A stretch of DNA of 64,000 nt from positions 44,045,684 through 44,109,683 of the forward strand of contig NC_089982.1 of NCBI RefSeq assembly GCF_036417845.1. The letters run 5' to 3'. Numbering within the stretch: position 1 is the first letter of the stretch; each line of letters starts with the position of its first letter. This DNA is from Apteryx mantelli. Lineage: Eukaryota > Chordata > Aves > Apterygiformes > Apterygidae. A program made the translations under genes and the position numbers. The notes under the pieces are model-generated. The model had not been told where the DNA came from. It did not search any database and was given only the letters and a program-made list of their open reading frames with translations. Shown piece after piece: positions 1,283-62,887 of this stretch.

Positions 1283-1630
1283 ATCACAGAATCACAGAAT
1301 GGTTGAGGTTGGAAGGGACCTCTGGAGATCATCTAGTCCAACCCCCCTGCTCAAGCAGGGTCACCTAGAGCACATTGCACAGGATTGCGTCCAGGCGGGT
1401 TTTGAATATCTCCAGAGAAGGAGACTCCACAACCTCTCTGGGCAACCTCTTCCAGTGCTCTGTCACCCTCACAGTGAAAAAGTATTTCCTCATGTTCAGA
1501 TGGAACTTCCTGTGTTTCAGTTTGTGCCCGTTGCCTCGCGTCCTGTCACTGGGCACCACTGAAAAGAGTCTGGTCCCATCCTCTTGACACCCTCCCTTCA
1601 GATACTTGTACATGTTAATAAGATCCATAA
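1283..1630 (-). mobile_element. CR1 LINE 3' fragment
   Basis: The left edge has the repeated octamer-like tail ATCACAGAATCACAGAAT, which is the reverse complement of the CR1 3' terminus, followed by the familiar GGTTGAGGTTGGAAGGGACC block. The minus strand reads the last part of the CR1 reverse transcriptase, with key pieces [18 protein letters not shown] and [18 protein letters not shown]. It is 5'-truncated, as most CR1 copies are, and has no full-length ORF. It belongs to the same subfamily as the copy at 31.1 kb but lies in the opposite orientation. CR1 of this type points to a bird or a close archosaur relative. Confidence 0.93.
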
Positions 1631-2241
1631 TAAGAAACATAACTTACTCTCAACGATATGATCAACATAATGTGTACTACTCCTCAAACAGTATCAAACA
1701 CACTGGATTATTGTTGGAGTAACCCGCATCCAGATCAGGCTGAGGGGTTACTGAGGGTCTGTGCTGTAACCCTCCCTCTGTAACCCCTGCTGTAAGCTTA
1801 CTGTCAGCCTCCCAACCAGGTGTTTAGCTGCCTGTGTACCAGCTCTGACACAGCTACATAACCTTGACTCAGACTGCTCTATACTTTTAAGCTGCATATA
1901 TCCTGCTCACAGAGTTTCTTTGAGTCAGCTAAAAATGCCCAAACACACAACCTACAAGGGGGACCATAAAAGCACAAAAGTTTAAGGCAGGTAACCCTGG
2001 CTTCAGATTTTTGAACAAATTCTCTCCCAACAAGTGTTTGCTATATCTAGTGGGTTAGACATACATCAGTAGAGAGATCCTTGGATTTTTTTTTTCCAGG
2101 AAGCATGTATGACTTCAGTGCAGCCAGCATTCAAACAATAAATAAATTAAATCTTGAGGTACATTTACAGAAAACACAGGTAAACAGAATCCTACAAAGC
2201 CATGGCGGATGAGAACTAGAAGACTGCCAAGTTATAACCAG

Positions 2242-31000: not shown

Positions 31001-34000
31001 ATGTTGTGTCACTACTGTGAAGAACAAAAAAGGAAAGTTTTTTAATTGTGACTTCAACAATTAGCTATTACCAGAGGCTAGCATGACTTTTAAAATATCA
31101 GTCATCAAGAAATAGAAATAAACGGAGTAGAAATTTTAAAGTATTGATTATCAGACTCTTTTCAGTGGTGGCCAGTGACAGGACGCGAGGCAACGGGCAC
31201 AAACTGAAACACAGGAAGTTCCATCTGAACATGAGGAAATACTTTTTCACTGTGAGGGTGACAGAGAACTGGAACAGGTTGCCCAGAGAGGTTGTGGAGT
31301 CTTCTTCTCTGGAGATATTCAAAACCCGCCTGGATGCGATCCTGTGCAAGGTGCTCTAGGTGACCCTGCTTGAGCAGGGGGGTTGGACTAGATGATCTCC
31401 AGAGGTCCCTTCCAACCTCAACCATCCTGTGATTCTGTGATCTTTCCCTCAGGAGCAACTCTGGCTTTCAGTCTATAGACGAAAAATGTATTTGTTCACA
31501 AAGTATTTTTCTCTGTTCAGATTTTTGCGTTTTCCTGCTGAACATTTTTGGTATTGCTGAGGGTCAGAATATTGATTATTTTTGATTATCTGAAACATTT
31601 TCATCATGTTAGGATTGTTGTGTGTACTGGAATTTTTATACCTCTTGGGCTTCTCACAGGGCCTTACAGCACCAAATCTTGCATTCTGTTCGTTCAGTTT
31701 CTGTAGTGGAAACGTGAGGATTCAGACTTAATGTCAAATGAAATGCCATGAAGGGTATTATTGATCAAGAACAATCTGAAATGTCTTTTTTGATTAAGTT
31801 GGCTACAGATAAAAAAGTTCGACTTAAACATTTTGCTAGACTTCAAACAGTACTTCTAATGTGATGTTATTAAGATTTCAATACAGAGATGATTCTCTTC
31901 ATTTAATGCTGTAAATAGAAGTGCATTAACCTTACTTTTGATTACCTATGAAAGTACATAGAACAAAGTTTTAGTTTCAAGACAATCTGCAAGATACAAA
32001 GTTCAGCTTCAGAGGAGTTTAAGTCTCCATAGTATTTACAAGCACTGACATGCCTTCTCCTCCCACAAATCTTGCACACAACACTTATCCTTTTGATGAG
32101 GTTGTCACATAAGTTATCCCACTGATTCCAATGGTATTACAGAAATTGAAGAAGTTATTTAGGTGTTTGAATAATTTCCTGAATCCTCCTTACTTTTTAC
32201 TCTACGGACTATATAAGCTGTACAGATTCCTAGCAATAATTATTTTCCAAAGAGTAAAAAGAAATCCTTATACACAGAGTTTCAGTAATATACTGATTTT
32301 GTGAGTTTGGAAATTAATCAAATTGATGTGAAATCAGAGCAGAGCTGAAAAGCTGGTATAATGGTGGCTACATCATCCAGAAGAAAGAGAGCTAAACCTG
32401 CTGTGTGATGAGCAAATACAAGACTTCCTCTGCCAACATGGAAAAAAAGATAATTTACTGCATAAGTGATCGATGAAATTCTCTTTGGAATCCTTGATGG
32501 TTTTGTAGCAGATATTTAGTTACCTTCATCAGCCCCTGCCAATGCAATAATAGAGACCATAATTCTTTTTGTATCCAATGTCAAATTAAATTTGTGTCAA
32601 AATGGAACCTGTGAGTTAAAGATCATGTAATAAAATCTGCATAATTTTTAAGAAGTGTGAAAGATATCTATAACAAATACACACACACACACGCATGCAT
32701 GCCTACATATATATAGTTGTATATATGAGAGAAAGATATATGCACGGTTATTGTGGTTTTTATATCTAAAAAACAATAATTGGTAGAAACATGAGATATT
32801 TTATCCTACTGCATTGAGATGCTACCTGAACCCCATACTTTCTAGTCTAATTCATCTCTGTTACAAGTCTGACAAAGTCAATTGATTTACACTGGGGATA
32901 CATTTTTGCGGTATTGTCATTAAAAAGTTTAGCCATCTGAAATTACCAAGAGCCATCTTTTGGGAAGGAAAAAAATACAAAACCGCTTAAAAAAAATCAG
33001 AATATGTTATTCATTTCTTTTTTTTTCTTTTTTTTGATAAGCAGTCATGGTGATGATAGAAGCGTAGCAGGAAGCTCTAGCCATTAAGCAAAAGATCGTG
33101 GGTAACTTCCAATAAAATAGGCTCAGAAATTGTTTTTAAAGTAATATTTTAATTAATAATTTATCTTGTATAGTTCCTCAGAAAATATATTGTTCAGTTT
33201 TTCAATAAATGCTCTGACTATAAATTGTCATTCTCTTAAAAGAGATCCCTAACTCTGAAATGACAATATAATCAACCTCGAAAGGGCATACAAGTATGAC
33301 TTCCCAGGCTCAGCCACAAATTCTATTAGTATGTCTAGTTCTGATTTGATGAAAGCCACTATCTATTTTATTGATGCTTTCAAATCCATTGCCCTTGAGA
33401 GATATGGCAATGCATCTGATAATAATAATACAGATTACTGTCTATTTTCTAGTATTACACCAGCAAGTGAAAGGTACAATAAGCATGGTAAATAATTGAT
33501 GTTGGTAAGTACCAGTGGGATATTAATCTGTTGTTTGGGGGTTTTTTTGCAAGAAATGTGGTTAATGTTCTTGAACAAAACATGAGCAATCACAAATGTA
33601 AATAAACAACAATGCTTCACTGATTTAGACAGCGTCATGTTTCCTTTTCAGGTTGTGAAAAAGATGCGTTGATTGATATCCTAACACAGCGTTGCAATTC
33701 ACAACGACTTATGATTGCAGAGGCATACAGAGACATGTATGGCAGGGTATGATAGGACCATTTTGTACTTTCCTTACTTCTGCCTCTCCTGTCTTTATTG
33801 TGGTTGGACTTTCTCTCAGGTCAGTCACTGGAAGCAAAAGCCTGGCAGACAGCTGCTTGGCAGCTAGCAGATTGGCACGCAACTTTGCTCATGTAACTAT
33901 CAATACCTCTGAAAGTTTCAAATTGTCATTTATATAGCAGTAGAATTTAAATACGTCTGCTGCACAAACAGAAAAAAGAAGAAAAAAGCACATGGAAAGT

Positions 34001-48951: not shown

Positions 48952-49302
48952 TTTTATTGCGCTTCGCTTTATTGCACTTTGCAGATATTGTGTTTTTTAC
49001 AAATTGAAGGTTTGCATCAACCCTGCATCAAGCAAGTCTGTCGACACCATTTTTCCAACAGCATGTGCTCACTTCGTGTCTCTGGGTCACATTTTGGTAA
49101 TTCTCACAATATTGCAAACTTTTTCATTATTATTATATCTGTTACAGTGATCGGTGATCAGTGATCTTTGATGTTACTATTGTAATTGTTTTGGGGCACC
49201 ATGAACTGCACCTGTATAAGACAGCAAACTGAATCGATAAATGTTGTGTGCACCCTGACTGCTTCACCGACCGGCCATTCCCCCGTCTCTCTCCCTCTCC
49301 TC

Positions 49303-49419
49303 AGGGCTCCCTTTTCCCTGAGACACAACAATATGGAAATTAGGGCTCCCTTTTCCCTGAGACACAACAATATGGAAATTAGGGCTCCCTTTTCCCTGAG
49401 ACACAACAATATGGAAATG
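49303..49419. repeat. Three tandem 39-bp units in the Tigger element
   Basis: The unit starting AGGGCTCCCTTTTCCCTGAG occurs three times head to tail with exact 39-bp spacing (49303, 49342, 49381). Copies 1 and 2 are identical; copy 3 differs only in the last base. In the frame of the transposase each unit reads RAPFSLRHNNMEI. It lies just before the presumed transposase start, and in my memory of Tigger1 the unit is single. Confidence 0.95.
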
Positions 49420-49440
49420 AGGCCAATTACTAACCCTGCA

Positions 49441-50580
49441 ATGGCCCCCAAGCATTCGAGTGAAAGGAAGAGTCGCACGTCTCTCACTTTAAATCAGAAG
49501 CTAGAAATGATGAAGCGTAGCGAGGAAGGCATGTCGAAAGCCAAGACAGGCCGAAAGCAAGGCCTCTGGCGCCAAACAGTTTGCCAAGTTGTGAAGGCAA
49601 AGGCAAAGTTCTTGAAGGAAATTCAAAGTGCTTCTTCAGTGAACACACAAATGATAAGAAAGTGAAACAGCCTTCTTGCTGATACGGAGAAAGTTTTAGT
49701 GGTCTGGATAGAAGATCCAACCAGCCACGACATTCCCTTAAGCCAAAGCCACATCCAGAGCAAGGCCCGAACTCTGTTCAGTTCTGTGCAGGCCGAGAGA
49801 GGTGAGGAAGCTGCAGAAGAAAAGTTTGAAGCTAGCAGAGGTTGATTCATGAGGTTTAAGGAAAAAAGCCATCGCCATAACATGAAAGTGCAAGGGGAAG
49901 CAGCAAGTGCTGATGTAGAAGCTGCATCAAGTTATCCAGAAGCTCTAGCTAAGATAATTGATGAAGGTGGCTAAACTAAGCAACAAATTTTCAATGCAAA
50001 TGAAACAGCCTTATATTGGAAGAATATGCCATCTAGAGCTTTCATAGCTAGAGAGGAGAAGTCAATGCCTGACTTCAAAGCTTCAGAGGACAGGCTGACA
50101 GCAAGAGAACTCGAACTGACAGCAAAAGAACTGGAATTAAAAGTGGAGCCTGAAGATGTGACTGAATTGCTGCAATCTCATGATAAAACTTTAATGGACG
50201 AGGAGTTGCTTCGTATGGATGAGCAAGGAAAGTAGTTTCTTGAGATGGAATCTGCTCCTGCTGAAGATGCTGTGAACATTGTTGAAATGACAACCAAGGA
50301 TTTAGAATATTACATAAACTGAGTTGATAAAGCAGAGGCAGGGTTTGAGAGGATTGACTTCAGTTTTGCAGGAAGTTCTGTTGTGGGTAAAATGCCATCA
50401 AACAGCATCGCATGCTACAGAGAAATCCTTCGTGAAAGGAAGAGCCAGTCGATGTGGAAAACTTCATTGCCGTCTTGTTTTAAGAAATTGCCACAGCCAC
50501 CCCAGCCTTCAGCAGCCGCCACCCTGATCAGTCAGCAGCCATCAGCATCGAGGCAAGACCCTGCATCAGCAAAAAGATGA
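49441..50580 (+). pseudogene. Tigger transposase remnant, inactivated
   Basis: From ATG 49441 one reading frame can be followed to 50580 with no frameshift. The N-terminal part (RTSLTLNQKLEMMKRSEEG, TGRKQGLWRQTVCQVV) is the CENP-B/psq-type helix-turn-helix DNA-binding domain of pogo-like transposases. In-frame stops are TGA at 49663, TGA at 49843, TAA at 49972, TAG at 50233 and TGA at 50320; the first has the look of a CGA to TGA change. The catalytic motif that normally reads NVDET reads NANET here (Asn codon at 49999), losing the first Asp of the DDE triad. The rest of the DDE core is missing because of a deletion near 50100, after which the acidic C-terminal part resumes (ELELKVEPEDVTELL). 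No active enzyme can be made. Confidence 0.9.
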
Positions 50581-50811
50581 CGACTCACTGAAGGCTCAGA
50601 CGATGGTTAGCATTTTTTAGCAATGAAGTATTTTTTTAATTAAGGTATGTACATTGTTTTTTTAGACATAATGCTATTGCACACTTAATAGACTACAGTA
50701 TAGCGTAAACATAACTTTTATATGCACTGGGAAACCAAAAAATTTGTGTGACTTGCTTTATTGCAATATTCGCTTTATTGCAGTGGTCTGGAACTGAACC
50801 CACAATATCTC

Positions 50812-50826: not shown

Positions 50827-52265
50827 TTATTTTTTTAACATCCCAATCATTAGATAATAAAGATAGCCTCTTGAAGAACCTACACACTTCTCCATCAGAG
50901 AGAAAGTACATTTTACTTCATTTACTGTTAGCGCATGATTTCTTCCTTAAATGACATTTTTGCCGTTTTTCCCACTTCTCATACCTCACCTTTTATGCTC
51001 TTGAACTGCATTATTTTAGTTACTATCGTAAGCATCTGCTCCTGTCTATTAACAGTCACTCACCCAAGCGTGATTTTGTATTCTCTTTCATTTAGCACAC
51101 GTACCTAATGCATTTATCTTTTTCTGTTTTAAACTAAAGGAGAAATTAGAATCAGGTATCACAAATAATTCTTGATTTAGTGTCATGCCCTGAAAATCAC
51201 TGGAAGATAAAACATTATATGGCTTTGAGAAATTAATTCAGCATTCTAAAAGATTAAACTTTAAAATACTATTTGCATCTTCGAAATTTAAAGCATTAAT
51301 TGAATACTGACATACAGAATGCCCAGGTATTTCTAGGATGCCCCTTATTATAATTCATGAGTTAAGATCTGACTAATAATAGATAACACTTTACACCTAA
51401 ATAAGGTTTCAAAACAAAACACTTCACCAAATACTAGCAAAAATTTATTTTGACAACAAATTGTGACAACTCTTAAGTGTATCTTCCTACTAATCAGCAT
51501 GAGTAGAGGTGGCAGAACTTGATCAAGGCTTCCTCCCAAAAGAAAACATCACGCTATAAATATCTTACGAGTGTAGTAAGTGCAGCCTATCCATGCAGCT
51601 TTCTAGCCTGTTTGTATCTCCTGTCAGTCTCTTGTGTAATTAGATTCACAAGGGAAAATGTAGTAATTTTACATTAAAACAACTACCTTTGCTTTTTCCT
51701 GTAGCTACAAAGTTTCCAAGTTAACATAGATATTTGACTATTTAAAACAAGCATTGTGACTTCTGGTAACTATAGGTCAGTATGATTGAACAGAGTACCA
51801 TTATAAAAACATACAAATAACATGTTTGCTTTTATGCAGTTTGCATCCGTCCTTTCCATAGCTCTGTGAGAGTTATGTGTTTTCAGTGTACCAGTTTTTA
51901 CAAACACCAATTTTGATTATGCTTCAAAAGTGTTGTTTTACAATAAACTTGAAATTTTGGTTGAGGGTACCTGTTGGGTTTGACAAATTTGAAAATATTT
52001 CAGCTACAAAGCTGGAACTTAAGCCAGAACTTTGGAAGGAAGGGACCTAGGAGGAAAAATACAGAACTAGAGTACGAATGAGACAAGCGCTCCCCAATTC
52101 GTTATCATTAACAAAACTCGAAGCCTATTTGAGTTTTATCACGGTTTTGCACCTGCAGTTACATGTAGCTAACCGCAGCCGTATCACACCACCGCGTAGC
52201 TGCTTCATATTAACGCTGCGTATTTGCATACAGGAATAAAAAAATAATAAAGTTCTCTCGGCAGC
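50827..52265. other. Intergenic stretch between the transposon and the TRIM-like promoter
   Basis: AT-rich unique DNA without a coding exon that I can support. It includes a good AATAAA at 51942 that could end ANXA10 transcripts, and passes into the CpG island from about 52.27 kb. Confidence 0.5.
51942..51947 (+). terminator. ANXA10: Candidate ANXA10 poly(A) signal
   Basis: AATAAA followed about 15-40 bases later by a GT-rich stretch (GGTTGAGGGTACCTGTTGGG), the usual arrangement of a vertebrate cleavage site. It is the first canonical signal after the ANXA10 stop but lies 3.3 kb away, beyond the transposon, so the assignment is tentative. Confidence 0.35.
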
Positions 52266-53555
52266 AGGCAGCCCGGAAACTCCTGCGTCACGGGGGCGTT
52301 CCCCGAGGTCGGCAGGACCGCGGCGCGGAGCCGGCAGCCGGGCAAACCGCCCACTGCGCCCCGGCGGCCGCGGATTTAACGCCCGCAACCGGCGGCGGCG
52401 GCGGGTGCTGGCGCGCCGCCGCTCGCGCGCCCGTTGGGAGGAGCCGGGTCCTAGCGCGCACCGGCAGCGCTGCCGCCACCGGTCGCACAGCCACCACCCA
52501 GCGCCCTTGCCCCGCCTGTGACGCTGCCGCACGCCCCCTGTGCTCTGACTGGAAGGCAGCAGTGTCAATCTCGCGCCTTCCCCAAATCGCCACCACGGCT
52601 GCTCCCTGCCCCGCCCTCCACTGCCGGGTTCCACTTCCTGCGAAGTTGGCGGCTGGAAGGGGCGGTTGAAGTTCGAAGCTGGCGGCGCCGTTGGCGGTGG
52701 GCCCGCCCGCTCCCCCCCCCGCACCCGCAGCCCGCTAGCGGCGGGGCCCGCAGCCGCCTGGCGCTGATCTGGAGGGAGCGGCGCCGTGTGGCGAGGCGGG
52801 GGCTCCCAGCCGGGCCGCCTGCGTGCCGGGCCGAGGGGGGGAGGAGCCGCGGCCTCGGCCGCGCAGTTGCCTGTCGCAGATGGAGGCCAGCCTGACGTGT
52901 GCCGTGTGCCTGTCCCTCTTCGAGGAGCCGGTCACGCTGCCGCTGTGCTCGCACAACTTCTGCCGGGACTGCGTGCTCGAGTGCCTGGCCTCGGCCGAAG
53001 CCGCCCGCCTGCAGCAGCAGCGGGGCCAGGGGCAGGCCCGCCTCTCGCGGGGAGGCCCGGGGCAGGGCGCTGGCGGCGCCGCGGCCGCCACCCGCGTGTC
53101 GTGCCCGCTGTGCAGGAAGCTCTGCCCGCTGCCCCGCGGCGGCGCCGCCGCGCTGCCCGTCAACACCACCTTGGCGGAGGTGGTGAAGCTCTACCGGTCC
53201 GGCACGGCGGGGGCTGCCAAGGCGGCCGAGGCAGAGCAGGGCCCGGGGCCTGGCCTGTTCTCCCCGCTGCCCCTCGGGGGAACCTGCCAGAAGCATCCGA
53301 GCCGCCTGGTGCAGCTCTACTGCCGGATGTGCCGCCAGGCGGGCTGCGGACAGTGCGTGTCTGAGGAGCACCAAGGCATTTTCCACTCTGTCAACCTAAT
53401 AGACACTGTGTATCAGGAGGAAAAAGTAAGCGCGGCGCTTCCTCCCTGCGCCAGGGGTTGGGCCGGGAGGTCGGGCTGTCGCGGAGGGGTCCCAGCCGAC
53501 CTGGGTCGCTCTTGTTCAGAAACGCGGGGAGAAGCGCAGTGTCGTGGGTAGGCGA
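52266..53555. promoter_or_regulatory. CpG island covering promoter and exon 1 of the TRIM-like gene
   Basis: Very G+C- and CpG-rich, about 1.3 kb. Upstream of the start codon it contains an ETS-type site (ACTTCCTG at 52633-52640) and an Sp1-type GC box (GGGGCGG at 52659-52665). No TATA box near the likely start, consistent with a broad housekeeping-type promoter. Confidence 0.85.
52880..53425 (+). CDS. TRIM-like exon 1 (residues 1-182): RING and B-box 2
   Basis: ATG at 52880 (GCAGATGG) begins MEASLTCAVCLSLFEEPV. This start was chosen because the RING begins five residues in, as in other TRIM proteins; the open frame upstream has only a GTG at 52823 and no ATG. The exon carries the complete RING and B-box 2 and ends GAGGAAAAA|GTAAGC in phase 0. 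It is entirely within the CpG island, which explains the Ala/Gly/Pro/Arg-rich codon use. Confidence 0.93.
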
Positions 53556-56500
53556 AAGGCAGCGAGGGAGAGCGCCGCTTTGAACGCGTGGGCACTCGTG
53601 TGCGGAGCAGCGGAGTGTAGCTTGCCGTGCTGCCGCCAGGCTTCACGTACAGGGCACCAGGCTATCTTACAGTACCGTGCGATCTGAACAGAGCTTATCA
53701 AAGCACCTTAAGAGTTAACATTTTTTTTTTTTGTAAATGAAGACTTGTACTTCTGCTGTAGTAACACACGGATGCGAACAGTTATTTAACTCCGTGCTTT
53801 GATCTGTTTTTTCCAAGTCCAGAAAGATGCTAGTTCTGTTAACCAGAAACACACAGGTACTTTGTTTATAGGTTCTCTGAGTTGATTTAGGTAATTCGGA
53901 TGATAGCTAATTACCTACTTAGAAGTAGCTTAGATAAATAAAATTTAATAACTATACAACAGAAATATATTCCAGCAACTGGCAGGCCTACTGTTTTTTG
54001 TGTTTGGGGTGTTTTTGTAGTAGTAGAAGAGTTTTTTTTTTTTTATCAAAACAGCTAGCATTCTGGTAAAGTGAGTTTTTCACGCCCTACTTAAACCAGG
54101 TGCTGGATAGCATGCCATAAAACAGTTCTGATACACAGTATTGAAACAGTGCTAAAGAGGATAAGTGTTGTGGCTATTGTAGCTAAGAAAATAAGCCAGT
54201 CATGACAAAACATTAATTTGGAGCCAATGCTTTAATATTCTGCCCTGAACATAATTCTTTACTGACCAGAGCCAGAATTGGAGAATGTAGTTTATGTCCT
54301 TAGTAAAGGAAAAGGTTAATGTTTGTTTTTTCAGACTTTGTTTCATATATAGGTAATGGACTAATTAGAAAACACAATTTTGAAGGTGATGTAGGATTTA
54401 TCATGTACTAACTAGAGGCTTCAGGGTGGTAAAGGGGTAGATTTTCCATTAGCTGTATATGATGGCTGACCTCATGTGTAGTAACAGTTTAACAATAACA
54501 GTAACAGTTTAACAGTTTTATAAGGCAGGTGTTTTCATGGAGTCTACATCTTTTGCAATGGATGGTTTGGTCATTAAAAGTTTACATGCGGCATTGGCTA
54601 TTTTTAAAGCCCGAAGTTATTCTTGCACTGATTTCTCTATGCCCCCTTTCCTCCCTCACCAGAGTTGCCTGTCCCCGAAAGAATTGGGGGATAACAGTCT
54701 TTGTAGTAGACTATGTTTAAAAACAAACAAAATAACTCAGTTGTGGACAGCTTTCTATTTTGTCAGTGTGAGGCATAATATTTTGAAAAAAGAGACTAAC
54801 TCAGATTTGTTTGTCAAACTGGAATAATATAACAATGTTATATTTTGATAGATGTGTCTGAGGGAGGAGGATAAAAAGAAGATGGAGGAAAAACAGACTT
54901 TTGTTGTAGCTGTACAGTAATTGTAGCAAAATGTTGTATTGTAGGTGAGCCTAAAAACATTAGAGAAATCGCAAATGGAAGTTTGTTTACTGTTCCAAGA
55001 AAGTGTGAAATGTTATTAAGTGATGGTTTGTATCACTGCCTTTGTTTATATGTTGTACAGAACATCCCAAGATAATTTCAAGATAACCACAGAAATGTAT
55101 GTATTTTATGGAGTGGATAATGCTGTAACAAGCTTTTCAATTGCTGTCTTTACAGTTAACCTTCTTCAGTAGTCTGAAAAAACTGAGAATAATAAATGAG
55201 AAGCTGATGAATGAAATCTCAAGTCATCCAGATGATACTGACGTGAGTTACAGATGCTGGGTTTTGGGGGAGGGGTTATATGTAGCTTGATAGCAACAAC
55301 TTGGTTCTTTACTCGTTGTAGGTTAATCACGACATGGAGCATGCTGGTACTCTCTGTGGTTTAGACATGTTCTGAACTTAGTTAGGAATGTGACTTCAGT
55401 ATAGACTTTGCTACTGCAACTTCATCTGCATTTACATTCTCTTGCTTCTAGATAATGCTGACCAATGAAGCAGAGATAATTGCACTGGAATTTGGAGAAA
55501 TATTCAAAACTCTGGAAATGAAGAAAAAGCAATTGCTAGATGATGTTGAAAACCAAAGAAGTAAAAAAGAGAAAGAATTTCAGGTTTGGAAGAAAATGAA
55601 GGAAACTCACAAGAAAACCATTGAGAATTTTCTGAAGGACTGTGAAAAGCTTGTTCATGAATGTGATCCTCAGTGTTTCCTGGAGGTGATAGCCTTTCTA
55701 TTGCTACTTGACATCATTTGTATAATCCTCAAAATGTCATGTACAGCCTGACACATTATAGATTATGATTACAATAATGACTGGATCAGGGAAAACTAAA
55801 TTAAATAAATTTAAAAAATTAAGAATTTGGACTAAAATAATTTGACACTTCATACTTTTTTATAACATGCTTTTTACTATAGCAAAGTTTAAAAAGCATT
55901 TCTTGCAGTTAACCCATGGTATTTAATAGAATTTACTAATGCTTTTTACTTTCTTTACATTAAAAAGAAACTGATGAAATTGACTGTATAGTTATTGTTG
56001 TAACACTTGCTGTATTATGTTACCAGCTCTGAAAGTAAGCTGGTTTGATGCTGGGTAAGGGAGTTATTTCCTAGTACTGCTATCAACGTTGTCTTGCATT
56101 TATATGCTTGTTCATGTTTATTTTCAAATATTCTGTATATTGAGCACTTTCATTGCATCATTAAATTTGTGAGATACTAAAACTTTTGAGGGGGAAGACT
56201 GGAGCCAGAATTGATAATTTTCTGTAGTGCACAGGGGAGTACCGTACCAGATAACTGACTTAAGTTGAATTACACTGATTCAAAAACCTACTGTACTCTT
56301 TGCATTGAGGTGTGCAATGGAGATATATTAGCTTATTCAAAGCTAGCTTAAGTACCCTGACAAACACTGTATCAAGTAGTTTATATGCTTCTGTATAATA
56401 CTCTGAAAGTCTTTGTCATAGTCTTTAGGGGAACTGGAGATACAAACATCCTTTAATTAATTTTGAGATAAATGCTAGAGGAACAAAAGACGCAAGCTCA

Positions 56501-59500
56501 GTCATCACTGTTACTGCAGCTAGGCTAGACCTTTCATCTGACTCTAAACCAGCTAGATTATTTATGTCCAGGACTGTAGCTGCTGTTGTTTGAAACTTAG
56601 TGCAGCCTTCAGATATGGGTCTAAGAAATCACCGAATTCTGTGCTTCCTTTAACTTCAGTGTTCATGTATACATACCTCTGCTAAGAAACTGCAGCACAT
56701 TGCTATTTCCTGCAACTGTTTTTTTTACTGTCCTCAGATAAATGAGAAGTTGAAGTACTTGGAACTTGACCAAGTTTCTGGTAACTCAACTTGTCTTAGG
56801 GAAAATTTCACTTTCAGGTGAAAGTGACCCCCATTTATGGAAGAAGTGTCCTGAATCCAGTGATCAGTATGCTTCAAGCTTACCAGCTTTTTCCACCATA
56901 TCAGTACACAGCTGATTTTGGTGAGGTGTATTCTTTAAGATTCATTGTACTGAGGTCATCAGTGTCTCATAGGGAAGGAGCTAGTCTATAATTTACTTTG
57001 TTGTTGTTGTTGTTACTTGTTCTTTGGTAAGTAGTCACTTGAAGGACTATAGCAAAATGCATTTCATACTGCTATGATTTGGCTGATTTAAAACTAAAAG
57101 ATGGCTTTTTTTTTTTTTTTAACCTCGGTATAATAACATCTTGAGAGCAGTTAGCAGATGTTTCCCTCACCAAGGAATACAAAATAGTCCTTCATTTGAA
57201 TATTTACAAATATCTGAACATCTAAAATGCATGAGATAACTGTATAGTTCATGACTCATACTCTGAATGCTTTTCTTTGGCTCTCAAGAAATCTCTCTTT
57301 GTCCTCAACACAAAATATTATGGGACTGGTCATTCTCTCCCAGAATTGCCTTTTCTTATATGTGGCTGTTTTTATTATTATTATTTGAACAGTGTGTGTA
57401 TTAATATTTATACACACACATGTGTATATATACATATAGATGTATACACACACATATGTATATATAAAATGTTAAAAGGTTTATCACCTATAGTTCTGTG
57501 AAATCAAGGTAGGGAGTTTAATCTCAGAAGTATTTTAATAAAGCAATAGTTTCCTCTCGTAAGTTGGTGGAAAACACACTCATATGAATTCTTGTTTTAT
57601 TTATAGGTGGCCTGTGGCTTGAATACAAGGTATATATGTATTTTTTTCGTACTTTATTTCTTTTCTTGTAAATTCTTAAGATCAAAAGAATAGTTATTTT
57701 AGATGTGGCTATAGATATCCACTTAATGAAAATAATGTTTAGTAACTAAGTTATTAATGCTTGTGGATTTTTGGATGCTGCATGTGCCAAATTTTAGGCG
57801 GTATGTGTCAATAACTTGTGATGTGCTATCTGGGATCAGATAATCAGCCTACTGGATATCAATCTTTGAATCAGCTCACTAACAAAAACTGTAATATAGG
57901 AATTCATAAATACAGGGTTATTGGACTTTTTTAGATACCTTATTTGAAATGGAATCGGGAGTACTGGAGTGTGTACTACTTGTTCAGTTATAAAATATTT
58001 GGAGTTAACAATAGAAGCTTTTACAGCATGGCTCTTTAAATGTAAGAGCATATATGAAGATCCTGCAGTATCTTCATTTTCATTGTTTGCAGTACATTTA
58101 CCCTGAATGCCATATATTTCCTTCTAAAGGTTCTTAATTAAATTTCTTATCACTTACATGACTGCAATTATTTAAAGGTCAGTGAAGCGGTGGTTTTTGA
58201 GAAAGAATATTGAAAATGGAGTTCTTCAAAATATTTTGTGGTTCAGACTAACATCAGCAATGTCCTCTGAAAGAGTACAATTTTGATTCAGATACAGCCC
58301 ATTAATAACAGGGGGGTTTTAAAATCTTTTGACTGAATTAAGACACTTCTTTTTGCAATTTTCTTTTTCCATGAAACCTAATCCAAATGAATCTTCAAGT
58401 AATAAAGTTTAAAAAAAGAAATTTAGGAAACTATCAATGTTTTATTGAAGACTTCTTCAGGTTTTTTTCCCTTTTACTTACTTTTTTCAATAATTTTTTT
58501 ATTAAACAATTTAATTTTGTTGTTGGCATCTGAGCCTTAATAAAAAGGGGTTTTTTTAAGTGTGGGGTTTTTTTTTTTCATTTTCCAGAATGAAAACTCA
58601 GCTTGACCTGATGAATATAGCATCCAGCTATGAGAAGCCACCAGAGTATACCCAAAAGAAAATGGATATCAAACCTGTGGTTAATGAAATCTTGGCCTTG
58701 AAGTTAATACCAGTTAATGTAGGTGTAGTTAAAGGTAGGTAAGGAGGATTTAATATAGGACAGATTCAGGAAGGCACTTTAGGAACCCACAGTTTGTGGA
58801 ATTCATTGCTGATAAACATTCTAGATGGCAAAACTATGCATGAGTTCAGAAAGCATCTGAACAAATTAATAGAAGACAAGTTCATCAAGGCTTTTAAACA
58901 AATTTTGTGGATGCTTTCTCTCCAGAAAGTGCCTAAGCTGTGTTTTTGGAAGCTGGGAGAAGTTTCATTTTAATTTTCCTATAAAACCTGTATGACCATT
59001 GTCAGAAATGTAATACTGAGCTAGATGGATGTTTGTTGTAGTGTAATACCAAAGTTGTCTACACCCTGATTAAATAAATATTTTAACCTGTAGGATAAAA
59101 AAAAGTGAGTGCTGCATCAGAGCAGTTAGAAAAGCTCTTAAGCAGGCATCTTGCTTTGCATCACAGGAGTTTAGATAAGTGCTAGAGTCTTAGTTGCTTA
59201 GGGCAAGGTAAGTTTATTCTTAATTGGAATCTATATTTAGATGCACAGGAACCTTTAAGGATGCAAATACAGGAATAAAATGATTTTAGTCACATGTGGC
59301 TCTTTGAACACTGCAGCAAGGGTTTTCTGTCTTTTGCAGGGTGGGGGTGGGGGTCAGGTTTTTTTTAATGCAAGTCCAGTATTAAGTATATAATACAAGA
59401 CTCATAATGCCTGTAGTGCCTTTCAGTATCTTACCTGCAGTCTATATTTCATTGCCTGGTATCCTGTATATTTTGAAAATATCTGCTGAGGTTTTTTTTT

Positions 59501-62500
59501 TATCAGTGTAAACTTCATATTTAAAATAGTACTTGGTTGATTTATAAAAACAGAATATTTTTGTCACAATTTTGTGTCTAGAAAAATATTTGTATTATTT
59601 TTCATACTTGGATGTTCTCCAATCAATATATTTTTTTTTCCTTTTAATAGATCTACCTTCTCAAGGAAATGAGAACTCAGCTAACAATACTGTATCTAAA
59701 AATAACGTAAAGCAATGGAAAGACCAGAAAAATATACCCAACATGTTTCTTGTAAGTAATTGGCTATGAGGTTACAACGCTGGATAGTATTTTGTTTTGT
59801 CTTTGATATCAAAATGGGCTATAATGTCTGATGCAAAACATCTTTCAGCCAGTAGCAGGACAGGAGGAAGCACTAGCAGATGGTGGTCGGATCTGTACTC
59901 GCTTAATGTCAATATCAGAAATGTCAGCATTTCAAAATATGAGTCATGAGGTATGACTGAACATCTGTTGTAAGTATGGCTAAGTTATTAATTGTTACAA
60001 CACAACTTTCTAAATATGTTTGTATACTTTTTTTTCACTTTTATTTGGAGACAGGTACCCTTCCAATTCTGGAATGTAAATCTGATAAAGTTATTAAAGC
60101 TGCCAGGATTTAATTTTTTCTTCAGAAAACTAGAATTTGATGGTACTTAGTGACTTAAAATACAAATATTTTAATGGGGCTTTTTCAGACACATCTGTAG
60201 CTTTCTAATCCAAATAGGATTCTCTATTGCTTATTTGAAGAGGAAGTAACTTGCTGGTGTTCTGGGTTTTTTGAAGATAATAGGCAGACCTGGAGTGAAT
60301 TCTAAATTCCTGAAACTTTGACATGAAGCTGAAACCAGTCTCTTTTTAGTTGTATCTCCAGTGATCTAGTTATGAAACTTCTCCACTCCCCCCCCGACAC
60401 GCACACTTATTTCAGTCCCATGTGGGTGGCTCAGTGTGGAGTATTGTTCTGTGCAGGGATGAATCTTTTTGCAGTTAGTGGAGTGTGACTGGCAGTTAAT
60501 TGTTTAATGTATGTATTCAGAATAGCAATAGCAGGTGAACACACTAGAAGTCGCTTAGGCACTCTAAATATGCCATTATTATTATTTATTGTTTTGTAGA
60601 AGACATTCGACTCTCTTAGTCCCACTGAGAATGTAATTTAATATTTGATTGTATCTAATCAAATACTGCATTATTTTCAGATGGTGGTTGTTCATGACAG
60701 AGCTTGAGAATTTGTCATTTAATATGACTCTAAGCTAGTATTTTTTAAACATTTTCAGCTTTGGCAGTCATCTTGTATACTTTTTTTCCTCTATAGTTTC
60801 CTATTTCAGTATCTATTTTGTCATTAGGGTCCCATGTGTATCTTGTTTTTAAAGATCTTTTTTCATAATGATGTGGTTTCTGTTGACTTCTAGCAGCAAT
60901 GGAGACAAAAAACCTATCATAAATGCTATAAAATATGCAAACAGCTTTTTTTATCTTAGCATTGTACATAACTATTTTACAATTTCTGAATCCACAGATG
61001 CTCTGTTTTACTTAACAGGATTCATTTCTGTAATTGTAGGAGCTACGTTATAAATACTACATGGAACATCAGAAGCTGTCTCATGAGTTCAAGATACAAA
61101 CTCTACCTGCAAATAAAAAGTATAAATGTGTAACCACTGAGGCTTTGAAGAATAAGTCCTCAGGAGTTCCTTTTGTATCTTCATCTACTAAAGCAAACAA
61201 TGCAGATAGAGTAAAAATGGGAAGCTTGCAAAGAGCAGATGGTTTTGATGAGATAAGCTTTTCCAGTACTAGTAATCAGAGCATTCCATCCACAAACTTG
61301 AATTTTTCTGAAACAAATAGTGACTTTAAATTTTTTCATGAAAAAAGGTCCCAGGAAATAAGCACACTGGCCTTATCGGAGAACTCTAATGGCTTAGTAA
61401 TGAAAGAAAAAATACCAGTGCAGTCGTCAGCAGTTATGGTTTCCAATGAAATGGATGCAAATTCCAGCGCTTCATCTGGTTTAAAACCATCAGCATCAGT
61501 ACCTGTTACTGTTTCAGGTTCAGCATTTTTAGATATTTCTGCAGAGAGAGTTTCTGCTTCACCTTTTGCTTTCAGTGCATGTAACAACTCATTACCCAGG
61601 TTTATTAAAGACGCAGCTACAGTTTCCTTTACAAAGAAAGACAGTAAATCTATTTTCCCTACATTTTATCTAGGGAAATGTGATCCTGAGGATAAAATAG
61701 ATGACCAGGATGAAACTAAATTTATGAAACTTAGCTCTGTAACTAAAACTACTGTTTCTAATGCTTCAACCAGTCCTAATTTAGAATCAGCAGAAAGTGA
61801 GAAACCTGTTTTTTCGTTTGCCTTTGGCAATTCAGAAAGAGATCGTTTCACAGTATCTGGAGCCAGCAATTCATTTAAGGTTTTACCATTACCCTCATTT
61901 TTTAACCAATCAGAGAAGCCATCTGACCAAAATGCAACACGTCACATGGGAGAAAATACAGTTTCTCCAAACGAAGCTATAGAACGCTGTATGCTAAATC
62001 CATCGGTCTTGTTGGAGCAAACTGCTAATACCTCAGAATCCATCACTACTGTAGCTTATAGTACTTCAGAAACCAGCACTGCAGCTGGGGTGAATGATGT
62101 TTCTGAGACCCCCCTTCACCACAGCAATTATGTTTTTTCCTTTGCAAATAACTGTCTTCAGCTGCCTTCACCAGTGTTTTCATTTGGAGGCATTGTCAAA
62201 AATACCTCCGATTCACTGACTTCCTCCTCAGTGCTTTTCTCTAAAAGTGGCACTAAAAAAAATGAAAAAAAGAAAACAGAATCTCCAGACAAAACACTCT
62301 TAAATCTAGAAAAGTCAGTGTCTCTAGAGTGTACAGAGCCTGCTTCTAAACAAAGTGGTCCAAAATGTGCAGATTCTTTTTTTCCCATGAACTCTTCTAA
62401 GAAGGTTGAAAATGAAAAAACAATTGCTGATAGTAATTCTTCTTTTAGTCAGCCTTTGTGTTCAGCTGCCATTCCTGATAAAGAAGAGACTGCCTCTTTC

Positions 62501-62836
62501 ACTCAACTTACTACGTCAACAAAACAAGAAATAAAGGTAAAAGATGAAGACGGTAGAATTACTGCTGAAAACAACTATTCCTGTGCTAGGAAGGAGGATG
62601 AACCTGAGTCTGTACTGTTTCAGAATGAAGCTTGTTCTGTTCCTGACACATGCAGTGATTCATTTTTAGGAGGCTCTACACTTATCGTAAATGAGGCAGG
62701 AGGAATACCAAGTGACACTGATTCTGACACTGAAGAGCTAAGTCAAACATCAACCTCTAGTGATAACAGCAGTGCATCAGAATATTTTTCTGTTGCAGAA
62801 GACAAAATATCTGCTAGAGGAAAATCAGAGACATGA
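52880..62836 (+). CDS. TRIM-like RING/B-box/coiled-coil protein with an FxFG tail, 9 coding exons, 1047 aa
   Basis: Nine exons with GT-AG ends and agreeing phases join to 1047 residues. The RING is C3HC4 at C7, C10, C23, H25, C28, C31, C75 and C78, with a 43-residue Ala/Gly/Gln-rich insertion between C31 and C75. B-box 2 uses C136, H139, C148, C151, C156, C159, H164 and H169. Residues 183-289 are predicted coiled coil, completing an RBCC (TRIM) module, so E3 ubiquitin ligase activity and dimerisation are expected. No SPRY, NHL, FN3 or COS domain follows. Instead residues 450-1047, from one large last exon, are Ser/Thr-rich and disordered-looking, with FSFAFG at 707-712, FSFGG at 829-833, VFSFAN at 813-818, a basic patch KKNEKKK at 855-861 and an acidic/Ser patch near 1000-1016. 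I do not recognise the orthologue. Intact frames and splice sites argue that it is functional. Confidence 0.9.
55156..55242 (+). CDS. TRIM-like exon 2 (residues 183-211)
   Basis: Reads LTFFSSLKKLRIINEKLM and ends in DDTD at GAC|GTGAGT. Start of the coiled coil; phase 0 both ends. Confidence 0.9.
55452..55685 (+). CDS. TRIM-like exon 3 (residues 212-289), coiled coil
   Basis: Reads IMLTNEAEIIALEFGEIF, then a charged heptad-rich stretch (KKKQLLDDVENQRSKKEKEF) and finally DCEKLVHECDPQCFLE, a signature common at the end of TRIM coiled coils. 234 nt is also close to the 231-234-nt coiled-coil exon typical of TRIM genes. Ends GAG|GTGATA. Confidence 0.92.
56818..56925 (+). CDS. TRIM-like exon 4 (residues 290-325)
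   Basis: Reads VKVTPIYGRSVLNPVISM to YTADFGE, with acceptor CTTTCAG and donor GAG|GTGTAT. An alternative donor seven bases... earlier (TTTTG|GTGAGG) would break the frame with exon 6, so the later site is preferred. Confidence 0.82.
57393..57470. repeat. Imperfect CA/TG/TA microsatellite cluster
   Basis: Alternating TGTG, CACA and TATA tracts in intron 4 of the TRIM-like gene, including ACACACACATGTGTATATAT. Confidence 0.85.
57607..57629 (+). CDS. TRIM-like exon 5, 23-nt microexon (residues 326-332, codon 333 split)
   Basis: Between TTATAG and GTATAT lies 23 nt reading VACGLNT plus AG of the next codon. With exon 4 ending in phase 0 and exon 6 starting with the single base A, this is the only piece found that restores the frame (AG|A = Arg). 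It is supported by phase rather than by similarity. Confidence 0.7.
58589..58734 (+). CDS. TRIM-like exon 6 (residues 333-381, codon 382 split)
   Basis: Acceptor TTTTCCAG then A|ATG AAA ACT, reading MKTQLDLMNIASSYEKPPEY and later KPVVNEILALKLIPVNVGVV. Ends AAAG|GTAGGT in phase 1. Confidence 0.88.
58757..59060 (+). mobile_element. Ancient CR1/L3-type LINE 3' relic
   Basis: In the intron after exon 6. Blocks appear in the order known for an old reptile/bird LINE 3' end: 'gagttcagaaagcatctgaacaaattaatagaagacaagttcatc', 'gaagctgggaga', and 'gaccattgtcagaaatgtaatactgagctagatgga' against the consensus 'ccactgtcggaagacaggatactgggctagatgga'. Same family as the relic at 38.9 kb. The link is by memory of the consensus. 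Confidence 0.6.
59651..59751 (+). CDS. TRIM-like exon 7 (residues 382-415)
   Basis: Completes GAT and reads LPSQGNENSANNTVSKNN and on to IPNMFL; ends CTT|GTAAGT in phase 0. Polar, probably disordered linker. Confidence 0.88.
59849..59950 (+). CDS. TRIM-like exon 8 (residues 416-449)
   Basis: Reads PVAGQEEALADGGRICTRLM to SHE between TCTTTCAG and GTATGA; phase 0 both ends. Confidence 0.88.
61040..62836 (+). CDS. TRIM-like exon 9 (residues 450-1047 and stop), FxFG tail
   Basis: A 1797-nt last exon starting GAG CTA CGT after TTGTAG and ending ACA TGA. It encodes a Ser/Thr/Asn-rich tail without predicted globular domain. Nucleoporin-like motifs are KPVFSFAFG (704-712) and PVFSFGG (827-833). A hydrophobic run TLIVNE at 996-1001 followed by SDTDSDTEE (1007-1015) fits a SUMO-interacting motif with acidic/CK2-type flank. 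The 1.8-kb open frame in AT-rich DNA is strong evidence of selection. Confidence 0.93.
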   Translation, partial: ELRYKYYMEHQKLSHEFKIQTLPANKKYKCVTTEALKNKSSGVPFVSSSTKANNADRVKMGSLQRADGFDEISFSSTSNQSIPSTNLNFSETNSDFKFFHEKRSQEISTLALSENSNGLVMKEKIPVQSSAVMVSNEMDANSSASSGLKPSASVPVTVSGSAFLDISAERVSASPFAFSACNNSLPRFIKDAATVSFTKKDSKSIFPTFYLGKCDPEDKIDDQDETKFMKLSSVTKTTVSNASTSPNLESAESEKPVFSFAFGNSERDRFTVSGASNSFKVLPLPSFFNQSEKPSDQNATRHMGENTVSPNEAIERCMLNPSVLLEQTANTSESITTVAYSTSETSTAAGVNDVSETPLHHSNYVFSFANNCLQLPSPVFSFGGIVKNTSDSLTSSSVLFSKSGTKKNEKKKTESPDKTLLNLEKSVSLECTEPASKQSGPKCADSFFPMNSSKKVENEKTIADSNSSFSQPLCSAAIPDKEETASFTQLTTSTKQEIKVKDEDGRITAENNYSCARKEDEPESVLFQNEACSVPDTCSDSFLGGSTLIVNEAGGIPSDTDSDTEELSQTSTSSDNSSASEYFSVAEDKISARGKSET

Positions 62837-62881: not shown

Positions 62882-62887
62882 AATAAA
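62882..62887 (+). terminator. Proximal poly(A) signal of the TRIM-like gene
   Basis: AATAAA 46 bases after the stop, followed by a GT-rich stretch (AGTGGGGATACCTTGTGGTT). Would give a very short 3' UTR. Confidence 0.7.

Follow-up and report, generated by a model that had tools for sequence, protein, structure and literature searches.

A putative TRIM-type ubiquitin ligase with a probably NUP98-derived GLEBS-like exon in Apteryx mantelli

A stretch of 64,000 nucleotides from the bird Apteryx mantelli (contig NC_089982.1, positions 44,045,684 to 44,109,683, hereafter the window) carries an intact gene at 52880-62836 on the + strand, and its product is probably a TRIM ligase that includes a GLEBS exon derived from the nucleoporin NUP98. 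A RING domain, a B-box, the glutamate (EE) pair of GLEBS motifs, and FxFG motifs are all present, as is a GLEBS-like exon whose ends and phases resemble those of NUP98. The spliced model consists of eight exons, all joined at GT-AG borders, and encodes 1011 amino acids with no internal stop codons. A preliminary description of this DNA had reported a RING, a B-box 2 and a long tail with FSFAFG and PVFSFGG motifs in place of any usual TRIM C-terminal domain, and each of these features was recovered by Pfam and motif searches. Absent from that description is the GLEBS-like exon (59849-59950, continued by the first part of the exon at 61040), which provides a stronger link to the nuclear pore than do the FxFG motifs.

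The front end of the protein is that of a TRIM. The RING (52898-53119, + strand, amino acids 7 to ~80, with the last cysteine pair placed by eye) is matched by Pfam zf-RING_UBOX over residues 7-39 (E 2.9e-7), and the B-box 2 (53282-53392, + strand, residues 135-171) is matched by zf-B_box (E 3.5e-7), both above the cut-off. The RING is further supported by TRIM proteins in the PDB, wherein the best match to the first 468 residues is TRIM3 (1.2e-11), followed by TRIM2 (1.2e-9). The coiled-coil region is assigned by homology, through alignments with a TRIM59-like protein (residues 1-299) and with TRIM3 (residues 70-256). When the whole protein was scanned at E<=1, 11 Pfam families were returned, namely nine RING-type or zinc-finger relatives, the B-box and Nup98_GLEBS. 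We therefore conclude that the protein has no usual TRIM C-terminal domain, as none of those that define subfamilies C-I to C-XI is among the 11 families.

A GLEBS-like exon with NUP98-like boundaries

Exon 7 (59849-59950, + strand) encodes the GLEBS-like sequence PVAGQEEALADGGRICTRLMSISEMSAFQNMSHE and is proposed to be a homologue of the NUP98 GLEBS exon. Its 34 codons run from PVAGQE to MSHE and are flanked by introns in phase 0 on both sides. Exon 8, the last exon (61040-62836, + strand), starts with ELRYKYYM; its opening residues, ELRYKYYMEHQK, correspond to the end of the GLEBS match, and these are followed by a long tail that terminates at a stop codon (62834-62836). The segment RICTRLMSISEMSAFQNMSHE|ELRYKYYMEHQK had been likened to the C-terminal half of the NUP98 GLEBS motif from the translation, ahead of any scan. 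In the 1.5-Gb assembly of the same bird, which served for all own-genome searches described here, a search with the Nup98_GLEBS model (PF21240) located NUP98 at 1850298-1850393 of contig C1. The GLEBS exon at this site (PPTGSD to KSLE) comprises 36 codons, is likewise in phase 0/0, and is followed by an exon that starts with ELRLEDYQ. At the 3' end, the two GLEBS exons stop at the same codon and in the same phase, such that the intron of the window gene splits the two glutamates (E|E junction). The 5' end is also in phase, with a two-residue gap located within the exon.

The peptide of the NUP98 GLEBS exon, extended by 13 residues of the next exon, was aligned locally with residues 297-1011 of the window protein. 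The best alignment spans 46 residues (14 identical), begins at residue 380, where exon 7 starts, and continues across the E|E junction. Shuffled sequences scored as high in 12 of 10,000 trials for residues 297-1011 and in six of 5,000 for the whole protein, and none of 20,000 did so when aligned end to end. We also ranked 4,927 candidate exons, all in phase 0 and 30-42 codons long, by their score against the NUP98 exon. These were drawn from both strands of 241,655 bases that included the window and other loci, some of them overlapping, with the NUP98 loci and duplicate loci of the gene excluded. Exon 7 ranks first with a score of 28, and the runner-up scores 14. With these agreements in mind, we consider it very probable that the GLEBS-like exon descends from NUP98.

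Several observations weigh against this assignment. The NUP98 query began exactly at the start of its exon, leaving only the window side of that start free to vary. The PF21240 scores for the whole protein (13.2 bits, E 0.095) and for a 111-residue fragment in which it was the top match (15.5 bits, E 0.019) fall short of the curated 27-bit threshold, and five of nine shuffled or reversed controls matched unrelated families with best E values of 0.014-0.18, with Nup98_GLEBS appearing in none of the nine. If only the single named model is counted, the fragment value becomes 0.019/24,736, or ~8e-7, a figure that depends on the hypothesis being named first. A phmmer search of the PDB with the GLEBS piece returned 22 chains (best E 0.18), nearly all of them fluorescent proteins and none of them NUP98. 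In the own genome, PF21240 at E<=10 found NUP98 and one other weak place but did not find the window exon. Similarly, a tblastn comparison of the protein with the 50-kb NUP98 region (C1:1830000-1879999) gave neither a GLEBS match nor further NUP98 homology in its 15 top-scoring rows. In the window exon, conservation is poor over the first half of the GLEBS motif. Taken by itself, the match in sequence is weak and escaped several of the searches; it is the exon boundaries that carry the case for a GLEBS exon.

The tail and candidate functions

The last exon contains 598 open codons, an outcome with a chance of ~2e-17 at the composition of the exon. To gauge the motifs against chance, the 599-residue tail was shuffled 20,000 times at constant composition. 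The tail itself has two FxFG motifs (0.07 expected, P 0.002), PVFSFAFG at 61805-61828 (VFSFAFG from 61808) and PVFSFGG at 62171-62191 (VFSFGG from 62174). FxF occurs six times (2.0 expected, P 0.011), and the motif search also located VFSFAN, an FxF without the glycine, at 62132-62149 and the degenerate PFAFS at 61562-61576, all four elements being on the + strand. VFSF is seen three times (0.02 expected) and in none of the 20,000 shuffles as often, although this pattern was chosen post hoc. FG dipeptides are not enriched (2 seen versus 1.24 expected) and GLFG is absent, which also counts against a nucleoporin-type tail; with a P value of 0.36, FG enrichment was rejected as a line of evidence. 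The FxFG motifs are thus real, but with FG at chance level they do not turn the protein into an FG-repeat nucleoporin.

By charge and hydropathy, the tail (residues 431-1011) does not fall on the disordered side, where FG-repeat tails are expected to lie. In the own genome, the tail matched itself and one other place at E 2.98. Among candidate relatives, 67 stretches in the genome_contigs collection and 16 in the viral_contigs collection fit the pattern, and none was confirmed. Thus, the earlier proposal of a nucleoporin-like tail on a TRIM-type ligase gains support by way of the NUP98 GLEBS-like exon and its matching ends, whereas the FxFG evidence itself is weak, with two FG dipeptides in 599 residues.

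The lack of FG enrichment, the charge-hydropathy result, the weak sequence score and the searches that missed the GLEBS match all favour the explanation that the resemblance to NUP98 arose by chance. The gene would then encode an unusual TRIM with a serine-rich tail of unassigned role and no connection to the pore. We regard this as decidedly unlikely, as it is at odds with the agreement of exon ends and phases and with the first rank of exon 7 among the 4,927 candidates.

The SHE|ELR of the window protein aligns with the SLE|ELR of NUP98, placing the two glutamates at residues 413 and 414. The GLEBS motif of NUP98 is a long hairpin on the propeller of RAE1, in which E201 and E202 form two salt bridges with RAE1 that are conserved from yeast to human (PMC3783196). 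The EE pair is fully conserved among aligned GLEBS motifs, and its change to AA in BuGZ disrupts BUB3 binding (PMC9147866). Residues 157-213 of NUP98 formed the construct used for crystals (PMC9376891). As both glutamates are kept in the window protein, RAE1 binding is the most likely role for the element, and BUB3 binding is the main alternative.

We therefore lean, with only modest confidence, towards a TRIM E3 ligase that is docked on RAE1 via a NUP98-derived GLEBS-like element as the most likely mechanism. The GLEBS-like hairpin would grip the beta-propeller of RAE1, the coiled coil would render the protein dimeric, and the RING would ubiquitinate RAE1, its neighbours in the RAE1-NUP98 assembly, or proteins that arrive at RAE1. 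The net result would be a ligase stationed at the nuclear pore or close to it, on the machinery that exports mRNA. What weighs against this proposal is that the element may instead bind BUB3 or neither protein.

Should RAE1 binding prove true, the gene would encode a TRIM that took its targeting part from a nucleoporin. TRIMCyp is a TRIM with cyclophilin as its captured targeting part, and the window gene would be a counterpart in which a nuclear-pore module takes the place of cyclophilin. Several viral proteins have RAE1-NUP98 as their target, so a docked ligase would allow the idea that hosts weaponise this site to be tested directly. It would also offer a testable function for a bird TRIM that possibly has no mammalian counterpart.

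Were the GLEBS-like element to bind BUB3 instead of RAE1, the ligase would be expected at kinetochores or the spindle, as is the BUB3 partner BuGZ. Consistent with this, BUB3 is the binding partner of the GLEBS motifs in BUB1, BUBR1 and BuGZ, which also have the EE pair (PMC9147866). However, the exon ends and the sequence fit NUP98, and the 111-residue fragment scanned at E<=10 returned Nup98_GLEBS and a pilin family and did not return Mad3_BUB1_II. A search of the own genome for BUB1-type GLEBS exons yielded four matches with none over the cut-off. Since such exons were not confidently found, the comparison of NUP98 with the BUB proteins is one-sided. We judge BUB3 docking to be quite unlikely.

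The preliminary description also suggested an antiviral role, which can be framed as a natural TRIM-nucleoporin decoy or restriction factor. Through capture of the NUP98 GLEBS exon, birds would carry a natural TRIM-NUP98 chimera, an integrated decoy that offers RAE1 and FxFG surfaces and ubiquitinates whatever binds them. Any viral protein or capsid targeting RAE1-NUP98 or FxFG nucleoporins would bind the tail, or the RAE1 held by it, and would be ubiquitinated or disrupted in a TRIM5-like manner. If true, evolution would have arrived at its own form of the TRIM5-NUP153 fusion that was engineered in the laboratory.

Upstream of the gene, the + strand carries annexin exons (Pfam matches at 39.7 and 44.7 kb), and exons of a DDX60-like helicase lie beyond the window on the - strand (Pfam DEAD 2e-7; PDB kDDX60 E 0.003), and thus the gene sits between the two. 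In line with the preliminary description, we take the annexin gene to be ANXA10. The arrangement agrees with the synteny anticipated there, in which ANXA10 and DDX60 are presumed to be neighbours in humans. The adjoining DDX60-like gene is in keeping with a decoy, but the neighbourhood by itself is weak evidence. Also opposed to a decoy or other antiviral role is the result that no interferon-response (ISRE) or GAS cores are present at 50.5-53.5 kb. Full ISRE cores number three in the window versus 1.07 expected, and the nearest is 3.2 kb before the start codon.

The two FxFG motifs of the tail are likewise compatible with a decoy, but they number just two. HIV-1 is restricted by an engineered protein in which the TRIM5 RING, B-box and coiled-coil (RBCC) region is joined to the FG region of NUP153, an effect that is mostly lost when a single FxFG is mutated (PMC3795039). 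The tails of sarbecovirus ORF6 proteins have been crystallised with Rae1-Nup98, but no contact of these tails with the NUP98 GLEBS motif as such was found, and therefore RAE1 would need to form the bridge (PMC9376891). Overall, we view a natural decoy as unlikely, and docking on RAE1 continues to be the mechanism we prefer.

Gene structure, relatives and surroundings

All eight exons are on the + strand. Exon 1 (52880-53425) contains the start codon, the RING and the B-box, and it sits in a CpG-rich stretch (52201-53500; GC content 0.72, CpG observed/expected 0.90) that spans the 5' end of the gene. An in-frame stop lies upstream of the start codon at 52736. Exon 2 (55156-55242, 87 nucleotides) and exon 3 (55452-55685, 234 nucleotides) encode parts of the putative coiled-coil region, and both have GT-AG borders and keep the frame. 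Exon 4 (57607-57629) is a micro-exon of 23 nucleotides, a size that is typical of TRIM genes, and a model with no exon at this position was rejected on account of 83 stops. An exon-like segment of 80 nucleotides (56738-56817) also keeps the frame if swapped for the 23-nucleotide exon, and is a possible alternative exon of the coiled-coil region. Exon 5 (58589-58734) aligns with the TRIM59-like and TRIM13-like proteins discussed below, and exon 6 (59651-59751) encodes a linker. Soon after the stop codon, an AATAAA (62882-62887, + strand) is a possible poly(A) signal. An Rfam scan produced no matches at the gathering score.

To place the gene among TRIMs of the same genome, residues 1-345 were compared with 16 loci, seven of which were dropped as they had no open frame fitting the RING pattern. 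Nine rows were kept, two of them representing the same gene. The closest of these are a TRIM59-like protein (85.9 bits) and a TRIM13-like protein (72.0 bits), with the next at 50.4 bits; the names TRIM59 and TRIM13 for these two loci are our own presumptive assignments. In a tree, the window gene joins this pair with support of 82/86, which is not strong, and its branch is long. This kinship is tempered by the reverse search of the genome with the TRIM59-like query, in which the window gene came last of 73 rows, matching through nothing but its RING piece (27.6 bits); the low rank may reflect the split exons and long inserts. With the same query, a gene on contig C38 outscored the window exon, and by eye we presume it to be a different type of TRIM.

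When residues 1-473 were searched against the genome, 50 places were found, of which seven are the gene itself and the rest have E values of 0.001 or worse. We therefore find no close paralogue. The middle of the RING (52973-53101) is rich in alanine, glycine and glutamine, and is ~20 residues longer than in the TRIM59-like and TRIM13-like relatives.

The long branch could be taken as a sign that the gene is decaying and has no function. We consider this highly improbable for a gene that keeps all 1011 codons open and the splice sites of its eight exons intact, and that has a CpG-rich 5' end and an AATAAA after its stop.

Some additional features of the window and the genome are recorded here. 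A remnant of a DNA transposon at 49186-50600 (+ strand), which we call Tigger-like, contains a 39-bp tandem repeat (49303-49422). The piece of it that was scanned had no Pfam match, and it has 39 other long genome matches that are 85-90% identical (40 scored of 568 first-look candidates). Ends of CR1-like retrotransposon open reading frames were recognised by eye at 1368-1643 (- strand) and 31087-31356 (+ strand), and also downstream of the window in locus L019, where the piece has no Pfam match at E<=0.1. Such CR1-like repeats mark the window as DNA of a bird. Elsewhere, contig C4 (~0.34-15.6 Mb) and many small contigs hold several dozen B-box matches of near-equal score. Two copies separated by 11 Mb share 97.5% identity over 7.9 kb, and they have a RING and B-box with, further on, SPRY-like frames identified by eye. 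These matches give the impression of one TRIM gene amplified on a very large scale.

Comparison with known systems

TRIM59 and TRIM13 (subfamily C-XI) share the RING, the B-box and, by homology, the coiled-coil region of the window gene. However, the TRIM59-like and TRIM13-like loci of this genome (L035 and L036) are each a single open frame with hydrophobic membrane-type segments at the end, as judged by eye, whereas the window gene has multiple exons, eight in all, and a GLEBS-like/FxFG tail. The two loci could descend from a retrocopy of a multi-exon ancestor. A survey describes TRIM215 as a distant relative of TRIM59 and TRIM13 that is found in duck and chicken and has no mammalian homologues, and the duck protein appears to be without a membrane segment (PMC10445537). 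This description fits the window gene, which may be the TRIM215 of duck and chicken, an identity that we put forward as a proposal. The lack of a mammalian TRIM215 would indirectly support the absence of the gene from mammals.

With NUP98, the window gene shares the exon ends of the GLEBS region, the 0/0 phases and the EELR core. It differs in that the flanking exons of NUP98 carry GLFG-type repeats, whereas the window gene has few motifs, which are of the FxFG type, a TRIM front end, and 14 of 46 aligned residues identical. Among the papers listed in searches of the openly licensed literature, none concerned a TRIM with a GLEBS motif. The title of a report on TRIM34, also a TRIM, announces an interaction with the nucleocytoplasmic transport machinery, and its text names RAE1 67 times (PMC13189347). 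Unlike the window protein, TRIM34 is of the SPRY type, and the paper names GLEBS just once, in the reference list (PMC13189347).

The engineered TRIM5-NUP153C fusion resembles the window gene in joining an RBCC region to an FG region of a nucleoporin, although it was made in the laboratory from another TRIM and another nucleoporin, and human NUP153C has 29 FG motifs (PMC3795039). Given that this fusion restricts HIV-1, an arrangement of the kind proposed for the window gene can work (PMC3795039).

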